Assembly (NCBI GenBank): GCA_036655895.1
Contig: JAVVPF010000030.1
Span: 1 to 38,069 of the forward strand
DNA length: 38,069 nt
Direction: 5' to 3'
Source of the DNA: Cloacibacillus sp.
GTDB taxonomy: Bacteria > Synergistota > Synergistia > Synergistales > Synergistaceae
The notes under the pieces were generated by a model. The model had not been told where the DNA came from. It made no database searches and saw only the letters and a list, made by a program, of their open reading frames with translations. A program made the translations under genes and the position numbers. Shown one piece after another: positions 410 to 23,275 of the stretch. Every line of letters begins with the position of its first letter. The first letter of the stretch is position 1.

Positions 410-1444
410 TTATTTTGAGCCGTCTGTTATTTTTTTCATTTCATTTTTAAAGTCGCTCATGAGAGCTTTTCCCTTGCTGTCATCCAGTTTTTCCCATGTA
501 TTTGAGAAAGCCTTCATCATTGGGCGAAGCTGCTCCGGCGTGTAGGTGTGGACTTTTATACCACGTTTGGTCATAAGGTCCAGATATTTTTTGTCGTTTG
601 CCTCCGCGTTCTTTATGGAAAGCGCGGTCTGTTTGTTGACGGCAGCCTGCAGTACCTGACGATCTTCCTTTGAAAGCTTGTCCCATACCTTATTGCTGAT
701 CATTATGCCCAAGCATTCCGTATTTTTATTGTAGTTGTACCAATGCTTTATGACATCGCCCAACGCAGTGTAGGCTGCTACGATGGAATAACCCGTATCA
801 CCGTCGCATACTCCGGTCTGCATCGACTGATAGACATCGGCGAAAGGTATGGAGATGGTACGGAACTTCGCACCTTCCAGCGCCGTCTTGAAGACGTCCA
901 TGTTAGGTATGCGCAGCAACACTCCGTGGTCCACATTTGGATTGAGCGGCTCTTTGATCTCCTTCACCGTCCCCATGCCAACCATTCCTTCAAGATACAT
1001 ACCAAGCAGCTTCACACCCAATTTGCCGTTAAACTGATCCATCATTTTAAAGAACCAGCCGTTCGGGTCGTAGGCTTTAGCCACCTGCTTATAGCTTGCG
1101 GTATACCCGTGGATATATATCATATCCATTCTGCTGTCGAACTGGCTCGGAAAGGATATAGCCGCCATCTCTATGGTGCCGCGAATAAGTTCTTCATATA
1201 CGAGTGAGTAGTCGCCCAGCTGGTTGGCTGGAAAAACGCGTATCTGGACTCGGCCGTTAGTCTTCTGCTCAACCTCTTTCGCTATCGCCCTCATCGAGGT
1301 AGTAGCAAAGTGTTCCGGCGGGTTTTGTCCGGCAAATTTGAGTACTACCGGCGCGGCCGTGGCCTGTGATAAGAAGGATACCGCTGTGAGCGTAAGCGCG
1401 GCAAGTGAGATGATGAAGAACTTGAGATAACCTTTCCTTTGCAT
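410..1444 (-). CDS. TRAP transporter solute-binding protein (DctP family), orphan
   Basis: A periplasmic solute-binding protein of the TRAP (DctP/TAXI-like) carboxylate importers, 344 residues, the normal size. A signal peptide is clear: a basic start (MQRKGYLKFF), then a hydrophobic stretch ending near SQATAA at residues 25-30. The mature part starts with the family-typical VVLKFAGQNPPEHF, and the MQTGVCDGDTGY region matches the conserved segment that holds the ligand-binding part of the second lobe. The start has a GGGAGAG ribosome binding site. It lies 14 bases after the B12 mutase, at the 3' end of the cassette and far from the only DctQM membrane pair (6070-7901). It may feed that same pair with a second ligand. 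The ligand cannot be told from sequence. Confidence 0.9.
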   Translation of the reverse strand: MQRKGYLKFFIISLAALTLTAVSFLSQATAAPVVLKFAGQNPPEHFATTSMRAIAKEVEQKTNGRVQIRVFPANQLGDYSLVYEELIRGTIEMAAISFPSQFDSRMDMIYIHGYTASYKQVAKAYDPNGWFFKMMDQFNGKLGVKLLGMYLEGMVGMGTVKEIKEPLNPNVDHGVLLRIPNMDVFKTALEGAKFRTISIPFADVYQSMQTGVCDGDTGYSIVAAYTALGDVIKHWYNYNKNTECLGIMISNKVWDKLSKEDRQVLQAAVNKQTALSIKNAEANDKKYLDLMTKRGIKVHTYTPEQLRPMMKAFSNTWEKLDDSKGKALMSDFKNEMKKITDGSK

Positions 1445-1458
1445 GATGACACTCTCCC

Positions 1459-3240
1459 TTATTTTGATGTTTCTTTGCTTACTGCAAGCGCCTGCCCCGT
1501 CTTCTCCGGGAGAAGCTTCAGGTCAGTTACGACCCCTACTCCCATTGCTTCAAGATCGGCGCTTATATCAACTGGGATAACGCTCTCTTCTATGTTCTGG
1601 TTAAGCACTCCGCCCATACAGAGCGGCACCTTATAATTCTGTTCTTCCATCTCGTCTCTGACGCTGCGCGCATACTCCAACGCCATACCGTTGTGGGAGC
1701 TGATGAATATTATTTCGACACGTCGTGCGGCGGCTTCGGAGACGACCTCGTCTGGGTTGCGCTCCGCTCCGATGTTCTGCACTACGGCGCCTGCCGCACA
1801 AAGCAGCCTGTCTATCAAAAGCAGTCCGTGCTCATGGACGTCAGTTGAGGCGATGAGCGCATTGACCCCTGAAAGTTTCCGGCACACGTCACAGCTTTCG
1901 TAATATGGACGCCACAACTCGACGTGACTCAGCGTTCTTGTAAAGATGTCGTTTGGAATCGGCGGCTCGTAAGTATCAGCGCCGGAGCGCGCTCCCGGGT
2001 TCAACTGGTCCTCAAAGGCTCTGGGGCCTATCATTTTCAACACGTAGAGCATTTGGACAGCATCCTTAACATCGACTCCGCACTCCTCGAAGAAAGACAG
2101 TGCGTCTTTGAATATCCTTTTGCCCTTAGTACATATAGAATGCGCAAAGGCTTTGCTTGCGGAAAAATCGAAATGCGGATGAAGGCCGCGCGCTATTTTT
2201 TCAGTCTCACGACCCCAAAGCTGCGCCTCGCATATTTCATCAAGCGACGGCGCGCGAAGCGCCTCGGTAAACGGCACGGGGAGCACCGCATGCCCAGTGG
2301 GGCATTCGAGCTGCGTCATGATGTCCCATATAAGGTACTCCGACGTAAGAGAGCGGTTCTTTTCCGGATTCGGATCGGAAGATATGGTATCTCCATAGAT
2401 CATAGAACCAACGCAGTCATGGTCATGTATTTCATCCAGAGCGAATATCCATCCGGAACGCTTCACAGGATCTGAGATTAGGCCGCCTATGCAGTGGGCG
2501 AGGCGCGCTCCCAAAAGCTCCTCCACTATATATTTTTCAAGATAGCCCCACGCGGCGCTCGTCGCACAGTCAAGAAAGAGCGCGCCAAAACCGTCGTCGA
2601 GGTATGAATGCATCATAGTTCCCTTGGCGCGCAAGGCTCCCATTATGCCAATTGCCTTTGCGGTCTCGACAGTGGTTATATCCGTTCTCTTCCACATAGG
2701 CGCTTCGTGCGCGAAAAACTGGGAGAGATTGCCTACTGTAGTGACACCGGCGCGCAGAGCCGCTACAGCGTTTGTCGTAGAGGCGGGAAAGCCGATTATA
2801 AAATCTCCCATGTGCGGCTGTATTGGCGCAGCCTGTCCAACGCCCTGCCAGTCGGCGTCGGTGGCAAGATACGGGCCGGTTTCCTGTATGGCCGAACGGC
2901 GAAGAGAAAGCGGAAGCGACATTCTGCGGTCAAGGCATATCCCGGCTCTGTCCATCGTGAAGCCGTTTGCTTCTGCGAAACCGTAGAGCCCCTGCAGCGC
3001 CTCTGCGGTGCTGGCCCATGTGTTCATGCCGATATGGGCGTGGTACATGATCTTTTTCTCTTGTACGCAGCGGCGTTTATATTCAAGCTCAGAGGAGACG
3101 TCATACTTGTCCATAAATTTAGTGCGCCCGATTTTCACTTCAGAGGCGATGGCGCGGGATTCTGAAAGTACGGTTGCCGCCTTTGGCAGTTCGGCTTCTT
3201 TTAGTATTGATCCAATTCGTTCCTGTAATCCTATCAACAT
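1459..3240 (-). CDS. Adenosylcobalamin-dependent mutase, glutamate-mutase-like with fused B12-binding domain
   Basis: A 593-residue protein with two parts. Residues about 60-430 resemble the TIM-barrel catalytic subunit of glutamate mutase (GlmE/MutE). The segment around FPASTTNAVAALRAGVTTVG (about 151-170), followed by a His/Asp-rich stretch and LGARLAHCIGG, parallels the SNAVG...AGVKNITVGYG and AGATKVIVKTP regions of that family. Residues about 455-590 are a cobalamin-binding domain with the base-off/His-on motif DVHEHG at 467-472 (H469 would ligate cobalt), an ISSHNG loop at 513-517 and MGG at 542-544. Known glutamate mutases carry these parts on two proteins (GlmE, GlmS), whereas 2-methyleneglutarate mutase is a single chain of similar length. 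The substrate is therefore open: glutamate, 2-methyleneglutarate or something new. It sits between an ASKHA ATPase and a TRAP binding protein. Confidence 0.82.
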   Translation of the reverse strand: MLIGLQERIGSILKEAELPKAATVLSESRAIASEVKIGRTKFMDKYDVSSELEYKRRCVQEKKIMYHAHIGMNTWASTAEALQGLYGFAEANGFTMDRAGICLDRRMSLPLSLRRSAIQETGPYLATDADWQGVGQAAPIQPHMGDFIIGFPASTTNAVAALRAGVTTVGNLSQFFAHEAPMWKRTDITTVETAKAIGIMGALRAKGTMMHSYLDDGFGALFLDCATSAAWGYLEKYIVEELLGARLAHCIGGLISDPVKRSGWIFALDEIHDHDCVGSMIYGDTISSDPNPEKNRSLTSEYLIWDIMTQLECPTGHAVLPVPFTEALRAPSLDEICEAQLWGRETEKIARGLHPHFDFSASKAFAHSICTKGKRIFKDALSFFEECGVDVKDAVQMLYVLKMIGPRAFEDQLNPGARSGADTYEPPIPNDIFTRTLSHVELWRPYYESCDVCRKLSGVNALIASTDVHEHGLLLIDRLLCAAGAVVQNIGAERNPDEVVSEAAARRVEIIFISSHNGMALEYARSVRDEMEEQNYKVPLCMGGVLNQNIEESVIPVDISADLEAMGVGVVTDLKLLPEKTGQALAVSKETSK

Positions 3241-3417
3241 CGGGCCGCCCCCATATAATTTAAATTCTTTTAGTTTATGTTCAATATTTTAATGTATTGC
3301 CTAAAATAACCCTTGTTATAGTTTAATAAAATCCCCTCCTAAGTTATGCGAGTATTTGTGCATTATCTACAATCCCTTCCGCAACGCTGCCATCTTATAC
3401 AAAGGGAGCGCACCGAT
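3241..3417. other. Intercistronic gap within the mutase cassette
   Basis: This 177-base AT-rich gap between the ATPase and the mutase is wide for an otherwise compact gene set. I see no gene and no strong hairpin. It may hold a separate promoter for the mutase and the distal dctP gene, but no clear -35/-10 pair stood out. Confidence 0.3.
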
Positions 3418-5058
3418 TTATATATTCTGCACAACGGCCTCGCCTGTTATGGTGATTTTGGCAAGGCTTTTTTCGTTCTGTTCTTTACCAATGTATTCCC
3501 GCTCTTCCGTTATTGTGACATGCGGCTTTTCAATGCCCATCAACTGGGATTGCCTCCGTAAATAAACGTCAAGCCTCATTTTGCTTTTTGCTGTAATTTC
3601 GTAAACGTTCGGCGCACAAAGCTTTGCATCTGGCAAAAAGGCATAATACAGGTCGTCGAAGAAACTGTGAATGATAGCAACTGAACATGAAAGCGAAAGA
3701 GAACTCGCAGCAGCCCCTACCGCACTGGCCACACCGGAACCGTGGGGGACTCTGATATCGGCTGCTTTTTCAACGTAGGCAGCCGCCGGCGCCCCGACAC
3801 ATATTTTTTTCATTCCGGTGCTACTGCATTTTTTTGCAAACAGCGCCTCAAGCCGCGTAGAGACCTCATTGCGCACTGCTGAGGCGAACTCCGCGGCGGA
3901 AAGCCCCAGCTGTTTTCCTAAAGTTTCTGACGCGATGCAGCTTGCCTCTTTGTTTCCATCATATAAACCGAGCGTACAGAGTGCGTCCGTAGGCGTATAG
4001 GCGCAAGAGGCGCCGCCCCTTGCTACAGGCACGGCTCGCTGCGGCCCGATGACAAGGGCGCCGCTCTTTCCATCCACGCACACTAAGCTGTCTCCGCCAA
4101 GCGCTGCGGAATATATTTCAAGCGAAGGTATCATCGTCTGATATGAACCAATGGACGCACCCTCCTCGGAAAACACCGGACGCCCTTCGCGTATCAGCCC
4201 TATGTCGGTAGAGGTGCCCCCCATGTCCGCCACTATCGCCGCGCCCTCATCTATATCATCTAGTACGGCCGCGCCGCGCATACTGGCTGCGGGCCCAGAA
4301 AATATCGTCTCTATTGGAAAGCGCGCACACCATTCTCCGGAAACAAGAGAGCTGTCACTACGTAGGAACATGAGTGGACAGTCAAGATCAAATTTTTCGG
4401 CGCAAAGCTTTACACTATGAATAAGATGCTTCGTAGATTGCATAAGTGACGAATTTAAAAATGAGGTTACGGTGCGCTTCACAGAATTTAATTTTGAGTG
4501 AGCTATCTCATGCCCACAAGTTAATCCTGCACATCCGATATCTTTTATAGTTTCTGCGGCCTTTATCTCATGTGACGGGTTGCGCGGCGAATAAAGAGAC
4601 GATATGGCAAAATATTCTCCTACATGCTTTTTTGCAAAGTTCGCTAACGCGCCTATATCAAGCGGGGCGCGTTCCTTTCCCCATCCATTATGCCCACCCA
4701 TTATGGATAGCGTTGCTGATGGGGAAACAATCTTTAATATCTCGTCTTTTATATGAGGGAAATCATCATAGCCAATAAGCACAAGCGCTACAGGAGCGCC
4801 TTTACCCTCAAGCAAAGCATTTGTCGAAAGTGTGGTAGAAATATTGAGAGATATTATATCCTTAGGCAACGCAGCGCAAAGTAGTTTCCTAATGACAGTT
4901 TCCACAGAGTATCCATAGTCGTTATGATTCGTGGAAATCTTCGCCGAAGATGTGATATACTTCCCTTCTGTGTTATAAAGGACTCCATCCGTGTTCGTTC
5001 CTCCGACATCAATACCTATCGTAAATTTTTTATGTCTGATTTCCTGTTCTTGCCGCAT
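3418..5058 (-). CDS. Hydantoinase/oxoprolinase-family ASKHA ATPase
   Basis: A protein of about 546 residues related to HyuA and the N-terminal half of 5-oxoprolinase. Near the N-terminus is the phosphate-1 motif GIDVGGTNTDGV, then the family's NISTTLSTNALLEGKG. In the middle come FSGPAASMRGA and the second phosphate motif VADMGGTSTDIGLI, typical of the ASKHA (actin/Hsp70-like) ATPase fold. I chose the ATG at 5058, preceded by GGGGGA at good spacing, over a GTG at 5076. Most HyuA proteins are longer and are encoded with a HyuB partner; none is present here. Its place directly upstream of a B12 mutase parallels GlmL/MutL, another ASKHA ATPase found beside glutamate mutase, so a role in reactivating the mutase is as likely as hydrolysis of a cyclic amide. 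That role is inference; the fold is secure. Confidence 0.8.
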   Translation of the reverse strand: MRQEQEIRHKKFTIGIDVGGTNTDGVLYNTEGKYITSSAKISTNHNDYGYSVETVIRKLLCAALPKDIISLNISTTLSTNALLEGKGAPVALVLIGYDDFPHIKDEILKIVSPSATLSIMGGHNGWGKERAPLDIGALANFAKKHVGEYFAISSLYSPRNPSHEIKAAETIKDIGCAGLTCGHEIAHSKLNSVKRTVTSFLNSSLMQSTKHLIHSVKLCAEKFDLDCPLMFLRSDSSLVSGEWCARFPIETIFSGPAASMRGAAVLDDIDEGAAIVADMGGTSTDIGLIREGRPVFSEEGASIGSYQTMIPSLEIYSAALGGDSLVCVDGKSGALVIGPQRAVPVARGGASCAYTPTDALCTLGLYDGNKEASCIASETLGKQLGLSAAEFASAVRNEVSTRLEALFAKKCSSTGMKKICVGAPAAAYVEKAADIRVPHGSGVASAVGAAASSLSLSCSVAIIHSFFDDLYYAFLPDAKLCAPNVYEITAKSKMRLDVYLRRQSQLMGIEKPHVTITEEREYIGKEQNEKSLAKITITGEAVVQNI

Positions 5059-5148
5059 GGTTTCCCCCGAAAACACAACAATTTCATACTACTCAAAACA
5101 AAGCCATCCCTATCCAGTCCTATAATTCGAGAGACTGACAAAGAGTGG

Positions 5149-5961
5149 CTATAATCCGGCACTGTGGTTCTTGTTATTAAAACTCTTTGATTTTTCCCAT
5201 GCCGCGCGATAAGATTCTTTCACGGCGGCTCTAAAATTCATTTGATCCATAACCCTTAGACTCTCCACTGAAGTTCCAGCGGGTGTGCATGACTTTATTA
5301 TCAAAGGATGGAGGTCAAGGTCATTCTCTTCCCATAATTTTAAACAACCGAATATTGTCTGAAAAACCATCGCTGATGATGTCTTATAGTCCAGCCCACA
5401 AAGGACCGAAGCGTCTATCATTGATTCAAAGAATGACAACACAGGAGCTGGGCTAGTTAGCGAAGTGAAGATATCTATTTTATCTTCAGACACTGCAAAA
5501 CATTTACCAAAAAGATTTAAAAGCTCCATTATATTTTTAAGTTGCGCCTCTTGGACATTTCCACTGATTGTGATCGGAATCGCTCCTTCCCCTACAGCAC
5601 TGGGCGGATTAGGTAAAACTCTTGCCACTACTGCCCCGGGAAGTTCTTTTTGGTAGGTGCTGATAGAAATGCCCGCACTTACTGAAATCAATATCTTATT
5701 ATCAAGAGACGTTTCTTTAAGATCGCAAACTACTCTTTCTACAATGGAAGGTTGCACACAGACAAAAATAAAATCAGACTGCAATACTGCCTCACGATTA
5801 TTTCTGGCAACCCTCACTCCAAATTTTTCTTTTAATTCCGCACATCGGACGGCATTAGGATCAGCAATCGTAATTTTTTCAGCTATAGACTGTGAGGTAT
5901 TCGTTAAATGATTGATCAACAGCTCGGTAATATGCCCTGCTCCTATGAAAGATATCTTCAT
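5149..5961 (-). CDS. Pyrroline-5-carboxylate-reductase-family oxidoreductase
   Basis: 270 residues, the size of ProC. The N-terminus has the Rossmann motif FIGAGHITELL. The coenzyme domain then shows FVCVQPSIVERVV (ProC: CVKPQ), ISVSAGISI and the highly characteristic VLPNPPSAVGEGAIPIT (ProC: MPNTPALVGEG). The C-terminal helical domain has SLTSPAPVLSFFESM and CTPAGTSVESLRVM, the counterpart of the ProC segment TSPGGTTIAG. It is thus a true ProC-family member, but divergent (S-P-A-P where ProC has GSGPAY), so its substrate may not be pyrroline-5-carboxylate. It stands between the TRAP membrane genes and the ASKHA ATPase in the same orientation, which suggests an NAD(P)H step in the breakdown of the imported compound. 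Confidence 0.8.
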   Translation of the reverse strand: MKISFIGAGHITELLINHLTNTSQSIAEKITIADPNAVRCAELKEKFGVRVARNNREAVLQSDFIFVCVQPSIVERVVCDLKETSLDNKILISVSAGISISTYQKELPGAVVARVLPNPPSAVGEGAIPITISGNVQEAQLKNIMELLNLFGKCFAVSEDKIDIFTSLTSPAPVLSFFESMIDASVLCGLDYKTSSAMVFQTIFGCLKLWEENDLDLHPLIIKSCTPAGTSVESLRVMDQMNFRAAVKESYRAAWEKSKSFNNKNHSAGL

Positions 5962-6069
5962 GATGTTTTCTCCTTTTAGTTTAGATGAACTTATGCTGAT
6001 GCTCCAGCTCTATGCTTAGATTTCCGACGACATCTATTTCTCAGTTGGATAGTAATAAAAATCAAGAAA

Positions 6070-7383
6070 TCAATTTTGCATTAACTGTGGAAGCCACAGC
6101 GCTATCTTTGGAAAGGCAATAATTATGGCAAGACCTAACATCTGTAATAGAATGAATGGGATAGCCGCTGAGTATATTTCTTCTATTGTAACGTCTTTAG
6201 GCGCAGCACCCTTCATGTAAAAGAGAGTAAAACCAAACGGCGGAGAAAGATACGCGACCTGCAAAAGAACCATAAATATCAATCCCCACCACAGTGGGTT
6301 GAATCCAGCACTGGATATAAGAGGAGAGACTATCGGGGCCGCGAGCATTATCATTGCGGCTGGTTCCAGAAACATGCCAAGAACAAAAATAAATAACACC
6401 GCTACCGTGAATATAGCCCACGGGCCGCCGGGCAAACTCATTGCGATATTGCTGATCAGGACGTTGCCTCCGATCCCCGAGAATATGGAACCAAATGCAG
6501 AAGCTCCAATTATTATCCAACAAACCATAGCTGTTATCTCCATGGTTTCTATAGAAGATTCAAAGACAAGCGTTCTAGTTAACTTCTTATTCAACGTCAC
6601 CAACAAAAGAGCGCCACCGGCGCCGAAAGCCGCAGCCTCGGTAGGGGTCGCCATTCCCGTCAATATAGAACCTAGCACTATAAGTATAAGCATACTAGGC
6701 AAGAAAACATTGCGCAGGGCTTGGATTTTTTCTCTTGTAGTCGCCCTCTCATTTAGAGGCAGCGCTGGACAAAGTTCTTTATTAAAGTAACTTCTCACCA
6801 GTATATATAGCGAATAGATAAAAGCCAAAAAGAGTCCGCATGTAATTCCTCCAGCAAAGAGCCCACCGATAGATACACCTGTCACCGCTCCGTATACAAC
6901 CATATTTGTGCTAGGTGGGATAAGCTGTCCAAGGGTGCCGCCCGCCATAACAGAACCGATGCCAAGCTTTCTGTTATACCCATGTTTCGTCATCTGTGGC
7001 AGGCCTATCAATCCAAGCCCAATTACACCAGCCGCCACGACACCTGAGATTGCGCCCAGCATAGCGCCTACAAGTATAGTTGCAACAGCCAATCCTCCGC
7101 GCAGCGGGCCGGACCATTTATAGAACGCGTCATACAAGTCTTCTACAACCCGCGCCTTTTGCAGCACGAGTGCCATAAATATAAAAAGCGGTATCGCGAT
7201 TAGAGTGAAGTTATTCATCGTACCCCAAACCGCCGAGATGGCAAGGCTTACCCCGCCTGTTCCCCATAAGACACAACCAAAAAGCAGTGCGACAATCAGA
7301 AGCGAAAATGAGATCGGAATACCAATGGCAAGCGCCATCATAAGCAATAGGAACATGTAAAGAGGCGTATAGTCAAAAACCAT
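6070..7383 (-). CDS. dctM: TRAP transporter large membrane subunit (DctM)
   Basis: 437 residues, the standard DctM length, with about 12 hydrophobic segments. Family motifs include IPISFSLLIVALLFG near the N-terminus, GAISGVVAAGVIGLGLIGLP, then GGTLGQLIPPSTNMVVYG and the later FLEPAAMIMLAAPIVSPL. It forms the sodium-driven channel of the importer with DctQ. The start is 2 bases from the dctQ stop, so the two are translationally coupled. A 108-base gap separates it from the downstream ProC-like gene. Confidence 0.95.
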   Translation of the reverse strand: MVFDYTPLYMFLLLMMALAIGIPISFSLLIVALLFGCVLWGTGGVSLAISAVWGTMNNFTLIAIPLFIFMALVLQKARVVEDLYDAFYKWSGPLRGGLAVATILVGAMLGAISGVVAAGVIGLGLIGLPQMTKHGYNRKLGIGSVMAGGTLGQLIPPSTNMVVYGAVTGVSIGGLFAGGITCGLFLAFIYSLYILVRSYFNKELCPALPLNERATTREKIQALRNVFLPSMLILIVLGSILTGMATPTEAAAFGAGGALLLVTLNKKLTRTLVFESSIETMEITAMVCWIIIGASAFGSIFSGIGGNVLISNIAMSLPGGPWAIFTVAVLFIFVLGMFLEPAAMIMLAAPIVSPLISSAGFNPLWWGLIFMVLLQVAYLSPPFGFTLFYMKGAAPKDVTIEEIYSAAIPFILLQMLGLAIIIAFPKIALWLPQLMQN

Positions 7384-7385
7384 AA

Positions 7386-7901
7386 TCAGTTCTCCTCCTT
7401 TGAGGGTAAAGAATCTTTTGTCAAAGGTAAAACGATATTTACAATGGACTGAATGGCTACAAAAAAGAATGAGAATGGGACAAACAGTTTAAACCACCAT
7501 ATAGTTGGGTTAAAATCAGTCTGATGAACGGAACGCTCATTAATCAACATGGACTCATAGGCCCAGCCGCTTGCGTAATAGGCAACAACAAGGCACCCAC
7601 CGGCGATCAGTAAATTAGAAAGAGTTTGAAGTCTAGTTTGCCACTTCAAGGAAACGTATTTCGGAAGGATGTCCACGTTAACATGTTTATTGTTTAATTG
7701 ACAATAGATTCCTCCAACAAGAAAAAACATTCCGTAAATGAATATAGGAATTTCGTATCCCCATGATGGCATGCTATCAAAGAAATAACGCTTACAGGCT
7801 GCATATATTATTAATCCAATTAAAGGCAGAATAATGAGCGCTGTTATGTCGCCTAAATATTTTGAAATACGATTAAATTGCATGGCAAATTTTTTTAACA
7901 T
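7386..7901 (-). CDS. dctQ: TRAP transporter small membrane subunit (DctQ)
   Basis: 171 residues with four hydrophobic segments: ITALIILPLIGLIIYAAC, a middle one at IFIYGMFFLVGGIYC, LLIAGGCLVVAYYA, and one close to the C-terminus. The loop after the second segment has the family's HVNVDILPKYVS (general form HVRVDILYxxL). It follows dctP and precedes dctM, the common TRAP order. It anchors DctM and helps dock the binding protein. Confidence 0.92.
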   Translation of the reverse strand: MLKKFAMQFNRISKYLGDITALIILPLIGLIIYAACKRYFFDSMPSWGYEIPIFIYGMFFLVGGIYCQLNNKHVNVDILPKYVSLKWQTRLQTLSNLLIAGGCLVVAYYASGWAYESMLINERSVHQTDFNPTIWWFKLFVPFSFFFVAIQSIVNIVLPLTKDSLPSKEEN

Positions 7902-7939
7902 GTTTTTTCTCCTAATCGTCTTCTATATTAAGGGGATAA

Positions 7940-7971
7940 AGGGGGCAAAATTTCTTTAAAATAATGCCCCT
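7940..7971 (-). promoter_or_regulatory. Intercistronic hairpin between dctP and dctQ
   Basis: Arms AGGGGGCA and TGCCCCT enclose an AT-rich loop in the 98-base gap between dctP (stop at 8000) and dctQ (start at 7901). Such hairpins in binding-protein-first transporter operons often protect or partly terminate the upstream message, so that more binding protein than membrane protein is made. I infer that role here. Confidence 0.4.
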
Positions 7972-7999
7972 CTGCGGGAATCAAATAACAGAGTGTTGA

Positions 8000-9061
8000 C
8001 TATTTATGCCCCAAAGCCTTAGCCTGGTCTTTATAACCGAGATCGGAGAGTACCTTCGAGTAAACTTTTATAAATGCCTTACCTTCTGGCGTTTTGTTTG
8101 CCTGCTCAAGAATTACCTTCGCTCCTATTTGACGAGCTTTAATTACATCTTCCTTAGGTAAGACAATAATCTTAACTTTTTTGTTTATCCAATCTTGTTT
8201 TGCGATAATACTCTGCGGTGGGTTAGTGACTGCGGAACGATACCTTGAATGGTCTCGTGCGGCAAGGACTATATCCTTGAGATCCTGAGGTAAATTATTC
8301 CATTCCTTGGTATTGACGATAAACCCCTTGTCTTCATTAGAGCCTAGGTGTAGGCATGGTTCCACGACAAACTTGGTAACTTCGTGCAAACCCATATCTT
8401 TATTTTCTTTCCAATCAGAGAACTCTGCCGCGTCAATGGTCTTCATTTGAAGAGCGGTATATATTTCAGGAGCCGCAACACTTACAGTATTAGCGCCAAG
8501 GGCCTTATAGAACAGCGCCCCAATTCCACCCGCACGAATATTCTTTCCCTTAAAATCAGCCAAACGATTAATCGGCGTAACCGAACACAAAATCTCTGGG
8601 GGCATAAAATCCAACGTCCCTAAATAGGTCACGCCATATTTCTTATATAGCTTCTCCTTTATAGGCATAAGTTGTTCTTCCAGGTACATTTCATTGCTAA
8701 AATCTGTGATGGGGCACCCCGGGCGATTGCCAAGAATCGCAAAGGTCGGGTCTTTGCTGGACCAATATCCAGACCAAACAAAGGCTGCCTGTACTATGCC
8801 ATTTTTTACCGAGTCAAAGGAATCATAAACTGGAAATAACACTCCGGCCCCAAATGGTTCTATCACTAAACGACCTCTGGAGGCTTTCTTTACTGTATTA
8901 CAAAAATCAACGACTGTCTGATAGCGCTCCGTACCCACCATAGAGTGAGTTACTAAACGCCACTTATAGACTTTCTCGGCCGCGTTCGCAGGAAATACCG
9001 TTACAACAAGAAGCAATGCCATTAAAGAAATTGTCATAAAACCTTTTAAAAATTTGTTCAT
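8000..9061 (-). CDS. dctP: TRAP transporter solute-binding protein (DctP family)
   Basis: 353 residues with a signal peptide (MNKFLKGFMT..., cleavage near FPANAA at about 23-28). The mature part runs YKWRLVTHSMVGTERYQTVVDF, then VKNGIVQAAFVW and a central GKNIRAGG (family form GLKIRxxG) that contains the conserved Arg which usually ligates a carboxylate. MKTIDAAEFSDW is the counterpart of the lobe-two ligand segment. The ATG has AAAGGAGG nine bases upstream. It is the first gene of the dctPQM-proC-ATPase-mutase-dctP set. It belongs to the subgroup with long C-terminal helices that binds diverse organic acids; the ligand is unknown. Confidence 0.93.
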   Translation of the reverse strand: MNKFLKGFMTISLMALLLVVTVFPANAAEKVYKWRLVTHSMVGTERYQTVVDFCNTVKKASRGRLVIEPFGAGVLFPVYDSFDSVKNGIVQAAFVWSGYWSSKDPTFAILGNRPGCPITDFSNEMYLEEQLMPIKEKLYKKYGVTYLGTLDFMPPEILCSVTPINRLADFKGKNIRAGGIGALFYKALGANTVSVAAPEIYTALQMKTIDAAEFSDWKENKDMGLHEVTKFVVEPCLHLGSNEDKGFIVNTKEWNNLPQDLKDIVLAARDHSRYRSAVTNPPQSIIAKQDWINKKVKIIVLPKEDVIKARQIGAKVILEQANKTPEGKAFIKVYSKVLSDLGYKDQAKALGHK

Positions 9062-9362
9062 ATAAACTGCCTCCTTTATTTTTGTGATACGGTACTAATA
9101 ATGTACTTCCTGTCGTTAAATATGTCATTGGACATTGAAGCACAAAATAAAAAGCATTACTCCGTGTCCGTTGTGCACTTCGCACAAGCCCGTGGCACTG
9201 GTTTAATTTTAAATTAGATTCATGTTATTTTGAACAAATTTTATTTTATCCCTCATTTTTTAATAAAATCATTTCTACCCACTTTATTTCTTTTCCTTTT
9301 AAATCCTGCGCTGTTATAATATGCAACTGTGTGTCATATATTTTTATATAGAAGGTGTTGCT
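9062..9362. promoter_or_regulatory. Divergent promoter region between the TRAP/mutase set and the ABC importer
   Basis: About 300 AT-rich bases separate the two divergent start codons. On the plus strand a perfect TATAAT (9315-9320) lies 43 bases before the ABC binding-protein start, with no good -35 partner. Near the minus-strand gene is the inverted repeat TTGTGC-ACTTC-GCACAA (9171-9187), a candidate operator. I looked for a cobalamin riboswitch and could not identify the conserved B12-box arrangement, and no convincing Fur box was visible. Confidence 0.45.
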
Positions 9363-10439
9363 ATGAAAAGCAAAAAATTTCTTTCGTTGATTGCAGCCGT
9401 AGCTGTCGTTTTGACAGCCGCCATCTCCGCCTTTGCGGCCTCCGCGCCACAAGGCAAGCGTGTAATAACCGACCAGTTGGGACGCAGCGTTACTATCCCA
9501 CAAAATCCGAAAAGGGTCGTCTGCCTTATGCACCACGCGCTTGACATAACGCTTGAGCTACAGGCTGGAGACAGGCTTGTCGGCATAATGAAAGACTGGG
9601 ACAAACTGCTCTTCCCGGGCATCGCGGAGATTTATCCGCCAATCAAAACACTGCCGCAGGTCGGCACACTCACTGAAGTCAACATGGAGGAGCTGCTCAA
9701 GGTCAACCCCGACCTCGTAATAGTAACGCACTATTTCCCGCAGGAGACGCTGAAAAAGATCGAAGCGGCAGGGATTCCAGTTGTCGCTATTTCGCTCTAT
9801 CAGGCGGATTTCGAAGAGGCGTCGAAGCTCAACCCTAAGTTGAAAAACCCGGACAGAGCCTATACCATCGGAATGAAAATAGGCGTCAATCTGCTTGGCG
9901 AGATATACAATAAACCAAGAGAGGCCAAAAAGCTCAACACATTCGTTGAGGATCGGCGCGCCCTCGTCGGCGACAAACTATCGGCCATCCCCGAGAATAA
10001 AAAAATAACCTGCTACATGGCGAACCCAGACCTTTACACCTACGGCAGCGGTAAATACGTCGGCGTAATAATGGACAGAGCCGGAGGCATCAACGTCGCC
10101 CGGGAGATAAGCGGTTACAAAGCGGTCAACATGGAGCAGATACTAAAATGGGACCCTCATGTCATCTTCGTGCAGGATCGCTACGCAGCTCAGGTCATAC
10201 CCCAGATAACCAAGGGGGCGGCCTGGGCGCAGATTTGCGCCGTCAAAAAACATCGAGTTTACGAAACACCGGAATATGTGAAGCCATGGGGACACCCATG
10301 CCCTGAGTCAATGGCGCTCGGTGAATTGTGGATGGCGAAAAAACTCTACCCTGAACGCTTTAAAGACATCGATATCAATAAGTTCGTGCAGGAATTCTAC
10401 ACCACTTTCTACGGCGTCCCGTATAAAGGAAAACATTAA
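9363..10439 (+). CDS. ABC transporter binding protein for iron complex, haem or corrinoid (FepB/BtuF type)
   Basis: 358 residues from the ATG at 9363, which has GAAGGTG just upstream; an in-frame ATG at 9321 would put a poor extension before the signal peptide. MKSKKFLSLIAAVAVV... ends near SAFAAS, a cleavable signal without a lipobox cysteine. The mature protein starts RVITDQLGRSVTIPQNPKRVV, the hallmark of the PF01497 class III binding proteins. Later come NMEELLKVNPDLVIV and NMEQILKWDPHVIFV, the two equivalent lobe segments. It overlaps the permease gene by one base (TAATG). The ligand could be ferric siderophore, haem or cobalamin; the neighbouring B12 enzyme makes corrinoid worth testing. 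Confidence 0.9.
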   Translation: MKSKKFLSLIAAVAVVLTAAISAFAASAPQGKRVITDQLGRSVTIPQNPKRVVCLMHHALDITLELQAGDRLVGIMKDWDKLLFPGIAEIYPPIKTLPQVGTLTEVNMEELLKVNPDLVIVTHYFPQETLKKIEAAGIPVVAISLYQADFEEASKLNPKLKNPDRAYTIGMKIGVNLLGEIYNKPREAKKLNTFVEDRRALVGDKLSAIPENKKITCYMANPDLYTYGSGKYVGVIMDRAGGINVAREISGYKAVNMEQILKWDPHVIFVQDRYAAQVIPQITKGAAWAQICAVKKHRVYETPEYVKPWGHPCPESMALGELWMAKKLYPERFKDIDINKFVQEFYTTFYGVPYKGKH

Positions 10440-11467
10440 TGGGTCTAAATGGCGGCCAAAATAAAGACCGGCTGCTTCAGACGGGGCTGGCGCTGGCCGT
10501 ACCGGCCTCGTTTCTCCTGTCGTTGCTGATAGGGCGCTACGACATACCGGTTGAGACTCTGATAAAAATGCTGCTTTCGACCGTACTTCCGATAGAAAAA
10601 ACATGGCCGCAGACGATGGAGACTGTATTTTTTCAGATACGTCTGCCTCGCATCACAGCGGCATTTTTCGTCGGAGGCTCGCTTGCAGTCTCTGGGGCTA
10701 TATTTCAGGGGATATTTAAAAATCCTCTCGTCTCTCCAGATATTCTGGGAGTCTCCTACGGTGCTGGCTTTGGCGCGGCGTTAGCGATACTGTTGACAAA
10801 CGGAGGTCTATATCTACAGGCCTCCGCCATTTTTTTCGGCCTAACCGCAGTCTGCGCCGCATACGCAATGGCGCGCCTCTTCAAAGGCGCGCCTGTATTA
10901 GTGCTCGTACTCTCAGGAATCATAGTCGGAGCCTTCTTTCACGCGCTGCTTTCGTCTCTGAAATATATAGCAGACCCATACGACAAGCTGCCCTCTATAA
11001 TTTTCTGGCTCATGGGCTCGCTCTCACGCGTTGCACCAGAGGATCTGAAGTGGAGCGTCCCCGCCTTTATCACTGGCATCACAGCGCTCTACGCCTGCCG
11101 TTGGCGCGTCAACCTGCTTGCGCTCGGCGACGAGGAGGCTCGTTCTTTAGGCGTCAACACGACAGTTGAACGTGGCGTTGTAATCTTTATATGCACGCTG
11201 CTCTCATGCCTTGCTGTATGCCTCGCCGGAACGATAGGGTGGGTCGGCCTCGTAATACCTCATGTCGGAAGACTCTTTGTCGGATCCGACTACAGAAAGC
11301 TCATTCCAGTTTCCGTATCGCTTGGAGGCATATACCTCATTCTCATTGACAACGCAGCACGCGCGCTTACCGCAAACGAAATTCCGTTGGGCATCCTCAC
11401 CTCGCTAATAGGCGCACCCTTCTTCGCACTGCTGCTAATTAAAAGAAGGGCCGGGTGGCAGGCATGA
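10439..11467 (+). CDS. FecCD/BtuC-family ABC permease
   Basis: 342 residues, normal for one permease subunit of this family, with about ten hydrophobic segments. Motifs are RLPRITAAFFVGGSLAVSGAIFQGIFKNPLVSPDILG in the first third (the family form RLPR...GAxLAxSGxxxQxxxxNPLAxPxxLG) and IGWVGLVIPHVGRLFVG in the last third. The latter contains the coupling region that touches the ATPase. The gene starts on the stop codon of the binding protein and overlaps the ATPase gene, so the three are one translationally coupled operon. It would act as a homodimer. Confidence 0.95.
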   Translation: MGLNGGQNKDRLLQTGLALAVPASFLLSLLIGRYDIPVETLIKMLLSTVLPIEKTWPQTMETVFFQIRLPRITAAFFVGGSLAVSGAIFQGIFKNPLVSPDILGVSYGAGFGAALAILLTNGGLYLQASAIFFGLTAVCAAYAMARLFKGAPVLVLVLSGIIVGAFFHALLSSLKYIADPYDKLPSIIFWLMGSLSRVAPEDLKWSVPAFITGITALYACRWRVNLLALGDEEARSLGVNTTVERGVVIFICTLLSCLAVCLAGTIGWVGLVIPHVGRLFVGSDYRKLIPVSVSLGGIYLILIDNAARALTANEIPLGILTSLIGAPFFALLLIKRRAGWQA

Positions 11468-12252
11468 CGCTCGAGGTTCTCTCGTTATTCGCCGGCTACG
11501 GAGGGAAAACCGTCATTGAAGACATTTCCTTTAAACTTTCAGCAGGCTCCGTACTCTGCCTGCTTGGGCCTAACGGCGCAGGGAAATCGACGCTGATAAA
11601 ATGTCTGGCTGGAACAGCCGCGCCTCTGCGCGGTGAAATAAAAATTGACGGCAAGGCGCCGCGCGAAATGGGGCGCAGAGAATTTGCGAAAATTGTAGCC
11701 TACATTCCACAAAGTTCGGGTCCCGTATTTCCATTCAAAGTACGCGACATGGCCGCTATGGGGCGTACCCCGCACAAAGGCTTCTTCGACCAGCCGAACC
11801 CAAAAGACTACGCTAGGGTAAGCGAGGCTCTTGCGCAGCTTGGGCTCTCGCATCTCGAAGAAAAAAATTTTACAGAGTTATCCGGCGGCGAACGCCAGAT
11901 GGCGCTCTTTGCCGCAGCGCTTGTGCAGGAACCGCAAATACTTTTGCTTGACGAGCCCACCTCCCATCTTGATTTCGGCAACCAGATCAAGGTGCTCAAG
12001 ACGGTACGGCGTCTTGCGGACGAAAGAGGCATCAGCGTCCTCATGGCTACGCATTCGCCAGAGCATGCGCTCTTTATAGGGGACGCCGCAGCTATAGTAA
12101 GGGACGGGAAAATGTGGCCGCCGGGAGCGCCCGACGAAATAATCACAGAAAAGAGCATAAGCGAATGTTTTGCCGCAAAGGTTCGCGTAATAGAAACACA
12201 GGACGGCCAAAAAGTTTGTTTCCCAGACAAAACGGGGCTTGAGTCGTGGTAA
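11455..12252 (+). CDS. ABC transporter ATPase (FecE/BtuD type)
   Basis: 265 residues counted from GTG at 11455. Walker A GPNGAGKST (38-46), Q-loop Q86 in AYIPQ, signature LSGGE (142-146), Walker B LLLDEP (163-168) and switch His H200 are all present, so it should be active. Two starts are possible. The GTG at 11455 has AGAAGG five bases away; the ATG at 11464 makes the classical ATGA overlap with the permease stop but is 14 bases from the same ribosome site. It powers the importer encoded just upstream and is the last gene before the terminator at 12332. Confidence 0.95.
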   Translation: MAGMTLEVLSLFAGYGGKTVIEDISFKLSAGSVLCLLGPNGAGKSTLIKCLAGTAAPLRGEIKIDGKAPREMGRREFAKIVAYIPQSSGPVFPFKVRDMAAMGRTPHKGFFDQPNPKDYARVSEALAQLGLSHLEEKNFTELSGGERQMALFAAALVQEPQILLLDEPTSHLDFGNQIKVLKTVRRLADERGISVLMATHSPEHALFIGDAAAIVRDGKMWPPGAPDEIITEKSISECFAAKVRVIETQDGQKVCFPDKTGLESW

Positions 12253-12419: not shown

Positions 12420-13322
12420 TTAGGACTCTACTGATTCTTGCAAAGAGAGATTATTAATTACCTCGTAATAACGACTGATCGATGCATGGTCTAGATTTTC
12501 ACCACCATGATTGGCTACGGAAAGCATCATTTCTAAGACTTGCACGGAAAACGGAACCGAGCAATTTACCGCCCTGCTTGTTTCTAGTACATTTAGAATA
12601 TCTTTAATATGCAGCCCTATTCTAAATCCTGGCTCGTAGCGCCCTTCCAGCATTCGGGGTGCTTTATCCTCCATACATTGACTACCCGCGAGTCCTTTTC
12701 GTATGGCCTCAAAGACTTTGCGCGGATCGACTCCTGCTTTTTTTGCAAGAATCATTCCTTCTGCAACTGCGGAGATGTTAATTCCGACTATCATTTGATT
12801 TACAAGCTTAGTGATTTGTCCCGCTCCGCTTTCGCCTATATATGTAACACTAGCCCCCATCTTCGCAATTACTGGGCGTACCTTTTCAAAGGCCTCTTTA
12901 TTACCGCCAACCATGATTGCAAGCGTCCCATCTTTAGCCTTTTCTTGGCCGCCGCTAACAGGTGCGTCTATCATCTCTACACCTTTTTCTTTTAAGAGCG
13001 CGCAAAGCTCCCTGCTGACAATGGGAGCGATTGAGCTCATATCAACCACAATCTGCCCTTTCTTCATGCCTTTTATTATTCCGTCATCACCGGTAACAAC
13101 TTTCTGTACATTTGGAGAATTGGGAAGCATTGTGATGATAAGATTTGAAGATTCTTTTGCTACTTCTTCGGGTGAAGAAACGCATTCTGCTCCACAAACG
13201 CAAAGTTCCTCTACTGCCTCTTTATTGATGTCAAATACAACAAGAGAGTACCCCGCCTTAATGAGGTTTTTAGCCATTGGTTTTCCCATAATCCCAAGGC
13301 CTATAAATCCTATTTTATCCAT
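12420..13322 (-). CDS. Beta-hydroxyacid dehydrogenase (GarR/HIBADH family)
   Basis: 300 residues from the ATG at 13322, which has GGAGG upstream; a TTG at 13325 is less likely. All family elements are seen: Rossmann GLGIMG (8-13), followed after the second strand by the acidic D of VVFDIN, which favours NAD. The substrate motif DAPVSGGQEKAKDGTL has S123. The catalytic-Lys helix GAGQITKLVNQM has K172 and N175. Relatives include tartronate-semialdehyde reductase, 3-hydroxyisobutyrate dehydrogenase and 2-(hydroxymethyl)glutarate dehydrogenase, and sequence alone does not choose between them. It is the last gene of the TTT operon, downstream of three D-2-hydroxyacid dehydrogenases. Confidence 0.9.
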   Translation of the reverse strand: MDKIGFIGLGIMGKPMAKNLIKAGYSLVVFDINKEAVEELCVCGAECVSSPEEVAKESSNLIITMLPNSPNVQKVVTGDDGIIKGMKKGQIVVDMSSIAPIVSRELCALLKEKGVEMIDAPVSGGQEKAKDGTLAIMVGGNKEAFEKVRPVIAKMGASVTYIGESGAGQITKLVNQMIVGINISAVAEGMILAKKAGVDPRKVFEAIRKGLAGSQCMEDKAPRMLEGRYEPGFRIGLHIKDILNVLETSRAVNCSVPFSVQVLEMMLSVANHGGENLDHASISRYYEVINNLSLQESVES

Positions 13323-13358
13323 CAAAATGACCTCCGTATATATTTTTTAACTAATTCC

Positions 13359-14393
13359 TTAATAACCTTTTTCTATGTCGATCACATTATCAAGTGCTTC
13401 TCCAGCCTTAAGCCTACGCAAGTTTTGAAATACAATGTCAAAGGTACGGTCTATATAATTTTCTTCGTCATCACACCCCATGTGCGGCGAGATGATAAGG
13501 TTGGGCACAGACCAAAGCGGAGAATCCTTAGGAAGCGGTTCCTGTTCAAAAACATCAAGCACGGCACCTGAGATATGCCCGGCTTCTAGACTGCAGATCA
13601 GCGCGTCGTTATCTACTATTTTCCCCCGGCTTATGTTTACAAAACCAGCGCCCTTCTTCATCACAGAGAATTCTCTTTCTCCGACAAAATGGAATGTATC
13701 TTCTACCAGTGGGAGAGTAACAACGACGTAATCCGCCGAACGCAACACCTTATGAAGTTCCGACGGGGGTAATATTTCATCAAAATTTTCTTTAGGTATC
13801 TGATTTATATCGACACCAACTGTCTGCATTCCAAGCTGTTTCGCGGCCAGAGCAACGGCACTCCCCTGCTTGCCTGCACCAAGAATTGCAACCTTGGAAC
13901 CCTTTATAACGGAGACAAAATGCCCGTCCCAAAAATGTTTTCGCTGCGCGCATGCAAGTCTAGGCATATGGTTTCCTAACATAAGCAAAGCCATCATGGC
14001 ATATTCATACGTTTTCGGAGCATGTGCACCTCTGTTGTTGGTCAGTATCACACCTTTGGGCAGCCAATCCAGCGGCAACAAATGTTCTATTCCGGCCCCT
14101 ATTATATGTATCCACTTAAGACGTGGCGCAAGCAACGCTATCTCTTTAAGCGGAAACATATAGCCTACTACGATGTCCGCCTCTTTTATATCCCGACGGA
14201 ATTTTTTATAGTCTTCTTCATTCCAGCTTGGGTCATTCTCAAAGCTCGTCGTTGTAATTGTTCTTGAAATATTTATACTGTCTATAAACTCTGGGTATTT
14301 TTTCATAGCGGCATCCACGCGTTCCTGTGTCATGCGAAACACTTTGAGGCTGTCCTCCGCCGTCATTACCATGATATTCAATTTCTCATTCAA
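13359..14393 (-). CDS. D-2-hydroxyacid dehydrogenase, paralogue 1
   Basis: 344 residues of the D-isomer-specific 2-hydroxyacid dehydrogenase family, which reduces 2-keto acids or oxidises D-2-hydroxyacids with NAD(H). The dinucleotide motif is GAGKQG (172-177), and D195 in GVDINQ favours NAD over NADP. The catalytic triad is R256 (ISRG), E285 (EQEP) and H304 (SPH). The start is TTG at 14393, supported by AAGGAGG nine bases upstream; the first ATG lies seven codons inside. It is the most divergent of the three tandem copies (IIGAGIEH where the others have SSGVEH). The C-terminus is NVIDIEKGY. Confidence 0.9.
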   Translation of the reverse strand: MNEKLNIMVMTAEDSLKVFRMTQERVDAAMKKYPEFIDSINISRTITTTSFENDPSWNEEDYKKFRRDIKEADIVVGYMFPLKEIALLAPRLKWIHIIGAGIEHLLPLDWLPKGVILTNNRGAHAPKTYEYAMMALLMLGNHMPRLACAQRKHFWDGHFVSVIKGSKVAILGAGKQGSAVALAAKQLGMQTVGVDINQIPKENFDEILPPSELHKVLRSADYVVVTLPLVEDTFHFVGEREFSVMKKGAGFVNISRGKIVDNDALICSLEAGHISGAVLDVFEQEPLPKDSPLWSVPNLIISPHMGCDDEENYIDRTFDIVFQNLRRLKAGEALDNVIDIEKGY

Positions 14394-14407
14394 TTTTATC
14401 TGCCTCC

Positions 14408-15430
14408 TTAAAATTCCGTGTCTAGGTTCACGAGGTTTACAAGGGGCTTGCCTTCAAGGTAATTGCGAACATTGCACATAAGTATGTCAAGGCTTCTTGG
14501 CATATAATTTACAGGGTCATCAGATGATACATGCGGGGTCATTATCAGGTTAGGCGTCGTCCACAACGGCGATTCGTACTCAAGTGGTTCTTTGTCAAAA
14601 ACGTCAAGTATAGCCCCGGCCAGCGCTCCAGTTCGTAGCTTCTTATCAAGTGCAGCGGCATCAAGCAGCTGTCCTCGAGAAACATTGAGCAACGATGCTG
14701 TCTTTGGCAACCAGCCAAGCTCCCTTTCCCCGATCATTCTGTAGGTTGATTTAGTAAGCGGAGCCGCTATCACGAGGAAGTCCGCACTCTTCAGCGCTTC
14801 CTCCAATTTATCGACGGTCAATATTTCGTCACAATAAGGATGCTCTTTGATTACAGGATCTATTCCCGTCACATTCATACCAAGGCGCTTGCCTTGCCTA
14901 GCAACCTCTCCACCCTGACATCCAATTCCGATAACGACCAGCTTTTTCCCTTTAATAACGGTGGTAAAAACTCTCTCCCACTGCCCTTTCCTCTGCGCTG
15001 TATAAAGCTTAGGAATTGCAGAATTGAGCATTCCAAGATATGCGGCAAAAGTTTCCCCCGATTTTGGCTGATGGACGCCCCTGCTATTAGTTAGAGAGAG
15101 TCCCTCTGGAACCCAGGCAAAAGGAGTTATATGTTCCACTCCGGAACTATTGAAGTGTATCCATTTGAGATGAGGTGCATAGGTATGGATATGCTCTGTG
15201 GGAAACGTATATCCCATGAGTATATCCACCTCTTTCATTCTGGTAAAGAAAGAGTTTAAATCATTTTCCGTCCAACGATCATAATCATATTCACTGCTGC
15301 CCATCGTTACACAAAACCGATCCGCAATGTCACGGTTCCTAGCTATCGCGTCAAGTACCTGTTCTTCCGTCGCTTGGTATACATAGGCAGAGTGGCGGTT
15401 ATTCATTATGTGTATTTGAAGTTTTTTCAC
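14408..15430 (-). CDS. D-2-hydroxyacid dehydrogenase, paralogue 2
   Basis: 340 residues of the same family as both neighbours. It has GIGCQG (168-173), D191 in GIDPVIKEH, and catalytic R252 (VSRG), E281 (DKEP) and H300 (TPH). It begins with GTG at 15430, preceded by GAGG, 9 bases after the stop of paralogue 3. It is closer to paralogue 3 than to paralogue 1: both have FxSSGVEHI, RGxHxPKSGExFA and VFTTVIKxKKLVV. The N-terminal substrate domain carries MGSSEYDYDRWTENDLNSF, matched by a similar stretch in the other two. The substrate is unknown; context suggests the acid brought in by the TctCBA importer. Confidence 0.9.
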   Translation of the reverse strand: MKKLQIHIMNNRHSAYVYQATEEQVLDAIARNRDIADRFCVTMGSSEYDYDRWTENDLNSFFTRMKEVDILMGYTFPTEHIHTYAPHLKWIHFNSSGVEHITPFAWVPEGLSLTNSRGVHQPKSGETFAAYLGMLNSAIPKLYTAQRKGQWERVFTTVIKGKKLVVIGIGCQGGEVARQGKRLGMNVTGIDPVIKEHPYCDEILTVDKLEEALKSADFLVIAAPLTKSTYRMIGERELGWLPKTASLLNVSRGQLLDAAALDKKLRTGALAGAILDVFDKEPLEYESPLWTTPNLIMTPHVSSDDPVNYMPRSLDILMCNVRNYLEGKPLVNLVNLDTEF

Positions 15431-15439
15431 GGGGGACCT

Positions 15440-16471
15440 CTAAAATTCCATTGATATATCGACGATATTTCTCATCTGGCGGCCTGCAATTTCATTACGG
15501 AGATTCTCTATTGTAAGGTCAAGTGTTAACGGAATGTAATTCACAAGATCATCGGAGGAAACATGCGGCGTTATCACCAAATTAGGAGTGGTCCACAAAG
15601 GCGAATCTTCGGGAAGCGGCTCCACACAAAAGACGTCTAGTATCGCTCCGGACAATTCGCCATTCCGGAGTTTTTCATCAAGCGCAGCCTCATCAAGCAA
15701 AGGGCCCCTTGATACATTGATGATCCCGGCTCTTTTCGGCAGCCATCCAAGTTGCTCCCTACCAATGATGCCCTTTGTCTCTTTTGTAAGCGGTGCGGTA
15801 ATGGCCAGAAAATCTGCGTCTCTAAAAACTTCCTGCATTTTGTCCATTCCAACAACTGCATCACAATAACGATGTTCTTTACAGTAAGGGTCTATCCCCG
15901 TTACCACAAGCCCCATATCTTTGGCACGTCTTGCCATCTCGCCACCCTGATTGCCAACACCAAAGACCACAAGTTTCTTATTTTTTATGACAGTAGTAAA
16001 GACTCTATCCCATTTGTGATTACGTTGGCCTGTCATGAGGCGCGGCATGGCTGCGTTCAGCATACCAAGGAATGTAGCAAAGGATTCTCCTGATTTTGGG
16101 AGGTGAATACCACGGTTATTGATGAGCTTAATACCATCGGGAACCCATGTAAAAGGAGAAATATGCTCAACGCCTGAGCTGATAAAGTGAATCCATCTAA
16201 GATTCGGGGCGTAGCCTGCTATATTTTCAGTAGGAAAACTATACCCGACAAGAATATCTGCCGTGCTCATATAGCTATAATACTCATTGAAATCCTCATC
16301 TGTCCATTTCTCAAGCTCGTCATAACCGCTACTGCCAATTGTTATGTACAGCTGCTCGGCAAAATCAGCGTTTCTCTTAAGCAGGTCATCAATTTGCCCC
16401 TGCGTTGCTTTAAAAACTTCGACAGAACTTCTGCTGTTTTCAATATGGATATGAACTTTACCGTCTTTCAT
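15440..16471 (-). CDS. D-2-hydroxyacid dehydrogenase, paralogue 3
   Basis: 343 residues; the first of the three tandem dehydrogenases in transcription order, 42 bases after tctA. It shows GVGNQG (171-176), D194 in GIDPYCKEH, and catalytic R255 (VSRG), E284 (CVEP) and H303 (TPH). All three copies keep intact catalytic residues, so none looks like a decaying duplicate. The Gln at the fifth position of the glycine motif (GxGxQG, where most relatives have I or R) is shared by the three and marks them as one lineage. Confidence 0.9.
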   Translation of the reverse strand: MKDGKVHIHIENSRSSVEVFKATQGQIDDLLKRNADFAEQLYITIGSSGYDELEKWTDEDFNEYYSYMSTADILVGYSFPTENIAGYAPNLRWIHFISSGVEHISPFTWVPDGIKLINNRGIHLPKSGESFATFLGMLNAAMPRLMTGQRNHKWDRVFTTVIKNKKLVVFGVGNQGGEMARRAKDMGLVVTGIDPYCKEHRYCDAVVGMDKMQEVFRDADFLAITAPLTKETKGIIGREQLGWLPKRAGIINVSRGPLLDEAALDEKLRNGELSGAILDVFCVEPLPEDSPLWTTPNLVITPHVSSDDLVNYIPLTLDLTIENLRNEIAGRQMRNIVDISMEF

Positions 16472-16513
16472 GATGACGTCTCCCCCTTTGCAGTCTAACG
16501 TTCCACAATCACG

Positions 16514-18001: not shown

Positions 18002-18024
18002 AATATATTTCCCCCTATTCCAAA

Positions 18025-18483: not shown

Positions 18484-18526
18484 CGTATTCCCTTCCCTTT
18501 CTATTTCCTGTATTTAGTAAAGTTAT

Positions 18527-23225: not shown

Positions 23226-23275
23226 TTTATATTACCTCTTAAGATTAGTTTGAATTTATTTAATTTATACGGTGT

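Follow-up and report, generated by a model that had tools for sequence, protein, structure and literature searches.

Trans-4-hydroxy-L-proline is dehydrated by the glycyl-radical enzyme (GRE) HypD to pyrroline-5-carboxylate (P5C), which a P5C reductase encoded nearby then converts into proline (PMC7077986). Glutamate mutase, a B12 enzyme, is reactivated by the chaperone MutL (PMC4682846), and B12-dependent and glycyl-radical enzymes are interchangeable in some reactions, as exemplified by the glycerol dehydratases (PMC8473912). Here, we analyzed a stretch of 38,069 nucleotides from the gut-type bacterium Cloacibacillus sp. of the Synergistaceae (hereafter the window), which is one complete contig (JAVVPF010000030.1, C30) of assembly GCA_036655895.1 (G000; other genomes and loci are numbered with G and L). 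The window carries a seven-gene cassette with a B12 enzyme (MUT), a hydantoinase-A-like ATPase (ASKHA-H) and a ProC-family reductase, and these three genes constitute the core of a conserved module:

1459..3240, minus strand: MUT, a predicted adenosylcobalamin (AdoCbl)-dependent radical enzyme with an N-terminal barrel (about residues 1-440) and a C-terminal B12-binding part.
3418..5076, minus strand: ASKHA-H, a hydantoinase-A-like ATPase with Hydant_A_N and Hydantoinase_A domains, proposed as an AdoCbl-enzyme reactivase.
5149..5961, minus strand: a divergent ProC-family protein, predicted imine reductase, with F420_oxidored and P5CR_dimer domains and the motifs GxGHITE and TPAGTS, belonging to the MUT-linked ProC subfamilies.

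MUT belongs to a separate, unnamed family of B12 radical enzymes, as computed from its family membership, B12 motif and fold. Its only Pfam match is the B12-binding domain PF02310 at residues 465-552 (43.4 bits versus a cut-off of 32.1), in the C-terminal part that resembles GlmS in sequence. There, the DxHxxG motif is represented by D467, H469 and G472; the Asp and His are invariant in 80/80 readable alignment rows, the last position is Gly in 57 and Ala in 21 of them, and the GG motif (G543, G544) is invariant in all readable rows. The barrel half gave no Pfam match up to E=10 except a chance-level one to FIST (E=0.14), with no hit to the GlmE barrel (PF06368, Met_asp_mut_E) even at E=10, and neither Pfam nor NCBIfam has a model for the catalytic domain. 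A PDB search with a profile of 13 MUT relatives matched essentially B12 domains only, and the hhalign profile-profile comparison of the barrel with GlmE revealed no similarity (Prob 0.05%, with two rows only on the GlmE side). The structure model (pLDDT 83) nevertheless consists of a barrel and a Rossmann fold, for which methylmalonyl-CoA mutase and glutamate mutase are the best Foldseek matches (probability 1.00, TM 0.4-0.56). The sequence-only reading of this DNA had called the enzyme glutamate-mutase-like, which holds for the B12 domain but not for the catalytic domain. No described MUT-ProC system was found in the searched literature; as far as that literature shows, the family is undescribed, and it is real and conserved, with partner genes whose association with it is well supported.

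The distribution of the family was examined by a scan of one genome per species, which yielded 247 stretches with MUT relatives; the best 80 of the 247 were kept and, together with loci from a further genome search, gave 82 non-redundant loci and a tree. Four main groups were resolved in this MUT tree, one of Synergistaceae with Desulfobacterota and marine and rhizobial proteobacteria, one of Clostridia and Planctomycetes with a Synergistaceae paralogue, one mixed proteobacterial/archaeal, and one of Actinobacteria. All 16 loci that hold ASKHA-H have it immediately next to MUT and on the strand of MUT, the same is true of MutL (PF13941) in all 15 loci holding MutL, and no locus contains both. 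Each of the two partners occurs in a single part of the tree, MutL being found in the sister clade. Because ASKHA-H always adjoins MUT, MutL takes the same place in the sister clade and the two never occur together, we reasoned that ASKHA-H probably serves as a substitute reactivase in place of MutL/GlmL, which would be the simplest reading of this protein; the pairing and the exchange are computed, and the activity is what we infer from position and replacement.

ASKHA-H has the fold of acetone carboxylase beta and N-methylhydantoinase, its ATP-site glycines and aspartates are conserved, and by sequence it is closest to the caprolactamase alpha subunit, N-methylhydantoinase and acetophenone carboxylase. 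No protein of G000 matches PF13941 (MutL/GlmL), ASKHA-H matching Hydantoinase_A instead, and the ASKHA-H and MutL profiles show weak similarity only (E=1e-4, Prob 53%). Hydantoinase-A proteins normally need HyuB or another catalytic subunit, and HyuB (PF02538) is absent from G000 and from 9 of 10 other genomes searched, one copy being present in G026. ASKHA-H shares its fold and both hydantoinase-A Pfam domains with the HyuA-type ATPases (caprolactamase alpha, acetone carboxylase beta, N-methylhydantoinase) but is shorter, has no HyuB partner in the genome and always adjoins a B12 enzyme; a HyuAB-type amidohydrolase is disfavored since G000 lacks HyuB. Outside the Synergistaceae, a distant MUT-like gene (25% identity) of Bacilliculturomica (L158:3665-7478) is also followed by a hydantoinase-like ASKHA-H gene.

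The second partner of MUT is more widespread. A ProC-family gene is located near MUT in 34 of the 82 loci, or in 38 when the divergent ProC-like c63 group is included, and these loci range from Synergistota and proteobacteria to Heimdall-type archaea. In 25 loci it lies within 300 bp of MUT on the same strand, and in seven of these the two genes share a few bases; ProC-family genes occur genome-wide at about 0.5 per Mb, a density that predicts less than one such case. Of the four main MUT groups, three show the linkage, archaea included. These data indicated that conservation of the ASKHA-MUT and MUT-ProC neighborhoods is far beyond chance: the neighbors are kept, not scattered, which bears out the cassette proposed in the sequence-only reading as far as gene order is concerned. 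Most genomes have a separate, better-scoring ProC besides the linked copy, and the linked proteins carry divergent motifs of their own; the linked ProC is a dedicated gene, separate from the housekeeping copy. That of the window shows PF03807 and PF14748 (Rossmann domain and P5CR_dimer) above cut-off and scores 179 bits against the true-ProC equivalog TIGR00112, below the cut-off of 196.75. It sits between dctM and ASKHA-H, an arrangement common only to G015, and the other Synergistaceae loci keep ASKHA-H and MUT, usually with dctP2, and nothing else of the cassette. The ProC link is therefore weaker in the window's own clade than across the MUT family. Elsewhere in G000 (L202:9914-13736 and L204:5720-19421), further ProC-like genes were seen near HypD-like GREs that score below the HypD cut-off; these are possible further pairs of uncharacterized radical enzyme and imine reductase, and since ProC-like genes of this genome lie near other HypD-like enzymes, the combination of radical enzyme and ProC looks like a repeated theme.

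In relatives, the neighbors of MUT point to hydroxyproline and proline. A cluster of Emergencia timonensis (L159) encodes an epimerase, an HplG activase, HplG (identified via a close homologue, 1376 bits to PDB 7vua), a symporter, MutL, MUT, OrtA, OrtB and ProC. MUT shares clusters with the HplG/OrtAB pathway (HplG being the trans-4-hydroxy-D-proline C-N lyase) in this organism and related Clostridia, whereas HplG is absent from the window and the clade-1 loci. Three of the four E. timonensis MUT genes lie ≤5 kb from a HypD-like GRE (p ~1e-4), and all four within 20 kb. This organism is probably a specialist in hydroxyproline isomers; about 10 HypD/HplG-like GREs, six racemase-family, five ProC and four MUT genes were noted in its regions G061:C8:342-354k, 450-502k and 1041-1112k. 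In a Chloroflexi locus (L066), MUT is near aconitase X (AcnX), two proline-racemase-family genes, a DapA-like gene and an FAD oxidase, a combination familiar from the degradation of 3- and 4-hydroxyproline. Proline racemase occurs at L030, L050, L070 and L071, an ornithine cyclodeaminase-like gene occurs at L030, and at L060 MUT-ProC is immediately preceded by two M24 prolidase-family genes. Overall, 6 racemase-family genes (in 5 loci) were observed near MUT versus about 0.85 expected.

Three specific pathways were considered and set aside. The linked racemase-family proteins all retain their two catalytic Cys residues, and the pair that marks trans-3-hydroxyproline dehydratase is Cys-Thr; a 4- to 3-hydroxyproline mutase feeding that dehydratase is therefore disfavored. 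A role of MUT in turning 2-amino-4-ketopentanoate, which HplG produces, into glutamate semialdehyde was rejected for chemical reasons, as there is no stabilized migrating radical. D-proline reductase as the downstream step was rejected because PrdA was not found above cut-off in any genome searched. By eye, PrdA/PrdB-like genes are seen in G015 between two proline-racemase-family genes (L209:12986-18839), about 12 kb from the MUT cassette.

Our best explanation, which we put forward tentatively, is that MUT is an AdoCbl radical enzyme acting on a cyclic imino acid, likeliest a hydroxyproline isomer, with ProC reducing the resulting imine and ASKHA-H reactivating the enzyme; substrate, reaction and direction are what we infer here. 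The adenosyl radical would abstract the hydrogen next to the nitrogen of the hydroxyproline isomer or a similar imino acid, the hydroxyl group would depart to leave a cyclic imine, a pyrroline-carboxylate, and the linked ProC would use NAD(P)H to convert this imine into proline or one of its isomers. The outcome would be an electron sink together with a usable amino acid, and ASKHA-H would spend ATP on bringing MUT with a damaged cofactor back into action, the task of MutL/GlmL in other systems. MUT would then represent an oxygen-tolerant, B12-dependent counterpart of HypD. In favor of this, the Maritalea, Mesorhizobium and Levilactobacillus genomes have MUT and no HypD-like GRE. The two systems are alike in that a radical enzyme gene adjoins a ProC-family reductase in a proline-type context, but MUT would use B12 rather than a glycyl radical, is an unrelated protein with a merely proposed substrate, and occurs in genomes that also have HypD. 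As to the sequence-only reading, the analysis supports its view that the module is conserved, depends on B12, is probably catabolic and includes an imine step linked to NAD(P)H; the likely reactivase role of ASKHA-H and the hydroxyproline/proline context in relatives were absent from that reading.

Several observations weigh against this explanation. Its main weakness is that G000 and other MUT-bearing Synergistaceae already encode true HypD (about 11 kb from MUT in G007 and G025), so MUT there must serve another isomer or substrate and is not needed for trans-4-hydroxy-L-proline. The linked ProC differs from ordinary ProC, and its imine may therefore not be P5C. The cassette of the window has no hydroxyproline gene beside it, whether racemase, prolidase or other, and many alpha/gammaproteobacterial and actinobacterial MUT loci are devoid of hydroxyproline genes. 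The racemase enrichment amounts to the few genes counted above, and some of the example clusters were chosen after being seen. Finally, all DxHxxG AdoCbl enzymes known to us are isomerases, with no dehydratase among them.

It is this last point, along with the isomerase-type fold of MUT, that speaks for a different possibility, which we regard as only slightly less likely than the first: MUT could be a carbon-skeleton mutase or aminomutase for a linear amino acid (lysine, ornithine, a semialdehyde or hydroxylysine), the product of which cyclizes to a pyrroline or piperideine carboxylate that the divergent ProC reduces. The divergence of the linked ProC would fit, as would the ArgE-type M20 deacylases linked in gammaproteobacteria, the class III aminotransferases at some loci, and the finding that E. 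coli ProC also reduces piperideine-6-carboxylate (PMC12899673). The cyclic imino acid racemases and epimerases, HplG, AcnX and the prolidase-family neighbors, however, indicate ring amino acids.

Two further alternatives are improbable. In one, MUT would group with the single-chain 2-methyleneglutarate mutase of nicotinate fermentation and act on a branched dicarboxylate, ProC being incidental or reducing another intermediate. The Eubacterium barkeri enzyme is a single chain similar in length to MUT with a C-terminal B12 domain, and MutL as the partner gene in one clade would be consistent with such a relationship. Against this, no nicotinate-pathway genes were recognized in the loci read (no systematic search was made), and the tight ProC link across phyla would be unexpected, as we know of no ProC partner of that mutase. 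A sample of 291 Clostridia genomes contained no nicotinate cluster that could identify Mgm, and full-length MUT in only 3 of them. The other alternative, of about the same low standing, is that ASKHA-H is not a reactivase but an ATP-dependent enzyme opening a lactam or hydantoin before or after MUT. Its best relatives named above would suggest so, as would an AIG2/gamma-glutamylcyclotransferase-like gene beside MUT in some proteobacterial loci without ASKHA-H, but the enzymes known to do this act together with HyuB or a different catalytic subunit, HyuB is missing from nearly all the genomes searched, and ASKHA-H takes the MutL position.

It is highly improbable that MUT is simply a GlmE-GlmS fusion serving glutamate fermentation, in spite of the GlmS and GlmE likenesses described, since a glutamate mutase identity is contradicted by Pfam, by the profile comparison (two GlmE rows) and by the genome-wide search of G000, which found no GlmE. 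MUT resembles GlmES with MutL/GlmL in its B12 domain, barrel fold and adjoining ASKHA partner gene, but it is a single chain whose barrel lacks detectable sequence similarity, its partner is of the hydantoinase-A type, and ProC stands where methylaspartate ammonia-lyase would be. None of the seven cassette genes encodes an ammonia-lyase (methylaspartate ammonia-lyase was not searched genome-wide), in agreement with the earlier statement that the locus lacks this gene. An apparent GlmE-GlmS fusion of 666 aa, distinct from MUT, was seen in another Synergistaceae genome (L118, G035).

The remaining genes of the cassette are those of a TRAP importer:

8000..9061, minus strand: dctP1, TRAP solute-binding protein (Pfam DctP), closest in the PDB to the lactate/keto-acid binding TTHA0766 group.
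7386..7901, minus strand: dctQ, TRAP small permease (Pfam DctQ).
6070..7383, minus strand: dctM, TRAP large permease (Pfam DctM).
410..1444, minus strand: dctP2, TRAP-type solute-binding protein (Pfam DctP).

All seven open reading frames were found from 9061 to 410 in the order first read, and their Pfam domains agree. The genes plausibly form one operon because the intergenic gaps are only 2-177 bp. No cobalamin riboswitch was found upstream of the cassette. The region downstream of dctP2 is cut off, as the window is the whole contig; in L021-L026, L039 and L040, a convergent PucR/CdaR-type regulator (c7) follows dctP2, in most cases with an ABC permease pair behind it, and c7 is a candidate regulator of the module, lost from the window by the contig end.

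The importer had been taken as a defining part of the cassette, which did not stand: DctPQM is beside the core in 2 loci only, the window and G015, so it was rejected as part of the core and is a local addition. Relatives have Dpp-type ABC, Liv ABC, NSS or TRAP carriers instead, and in 10 non-redundant Synergistaceae loci MUT is followed by a conserved dctP2, in most cases unaccompanied by permease genes. Dpp-type dipeptide transporters, M19/M20/M14 peptidases and AIG2 proteins are found in several proteobacterial and other loci and would fit peptide-bound ring amino acids. At an Aminicenantes locus (L055:12557-14209), an M19 dipeptidase fused to an AIG2/GGACT domain directly follows MUT-ProC.

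Elsewhere in the window, a divergent ABC uptake system of the cobalamin/siderophore kind (9321-12252, plus strand; binding protein, FecCD-type permease and ATPase) adjoins the cassette. By eye, the minus strand carries at 12420-20282 a TctABC-type carrier, three D-2-hydroxyacid dehydrogenase-like genes, a 3-hydroxyisobutyrate dehydrogenase-like gene and an FCD regulator, read as a second acid-uptake cassette, and at 21900-30317 a set like that for Arn lipid A aminoarabinose (Ugd, ArnT, B, C, A halves, D, E/F-like). A tRNA gene lies at 20628-20700 (minus strand).

To our knowledge, few families of AdoCbl radical enzymes exist, each of which opened new chemistry. Members of the MUT family occur across bacterial phyla and in Heimdall-type archaea; the family has a defined partner that accepts electrons and an exchanged reactivase, so that two things can be tested directly, the reaction itself and which proteins are able to reactivate a B12 enzyme. 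In its boldest form, which we consider rather doubtful, the proposal is that MUT would be the founding member of a widespread family of AdoCbl hydroxyproline/cyclic imino acid dehydratases, the first B12 eliminase of the DxHxxG type and a substitute for HypD that tolerates oxygen, with a dedicated ProC and, in Synergistaceae, a hydantoinase-type ATPase replacing MutL. If the substrate is indeed hydroxyproline, this would account for how aerobic marine and rhizobial bacteria without GREs might exploit hydroxyproline from collagen and plants through radical chemistry.

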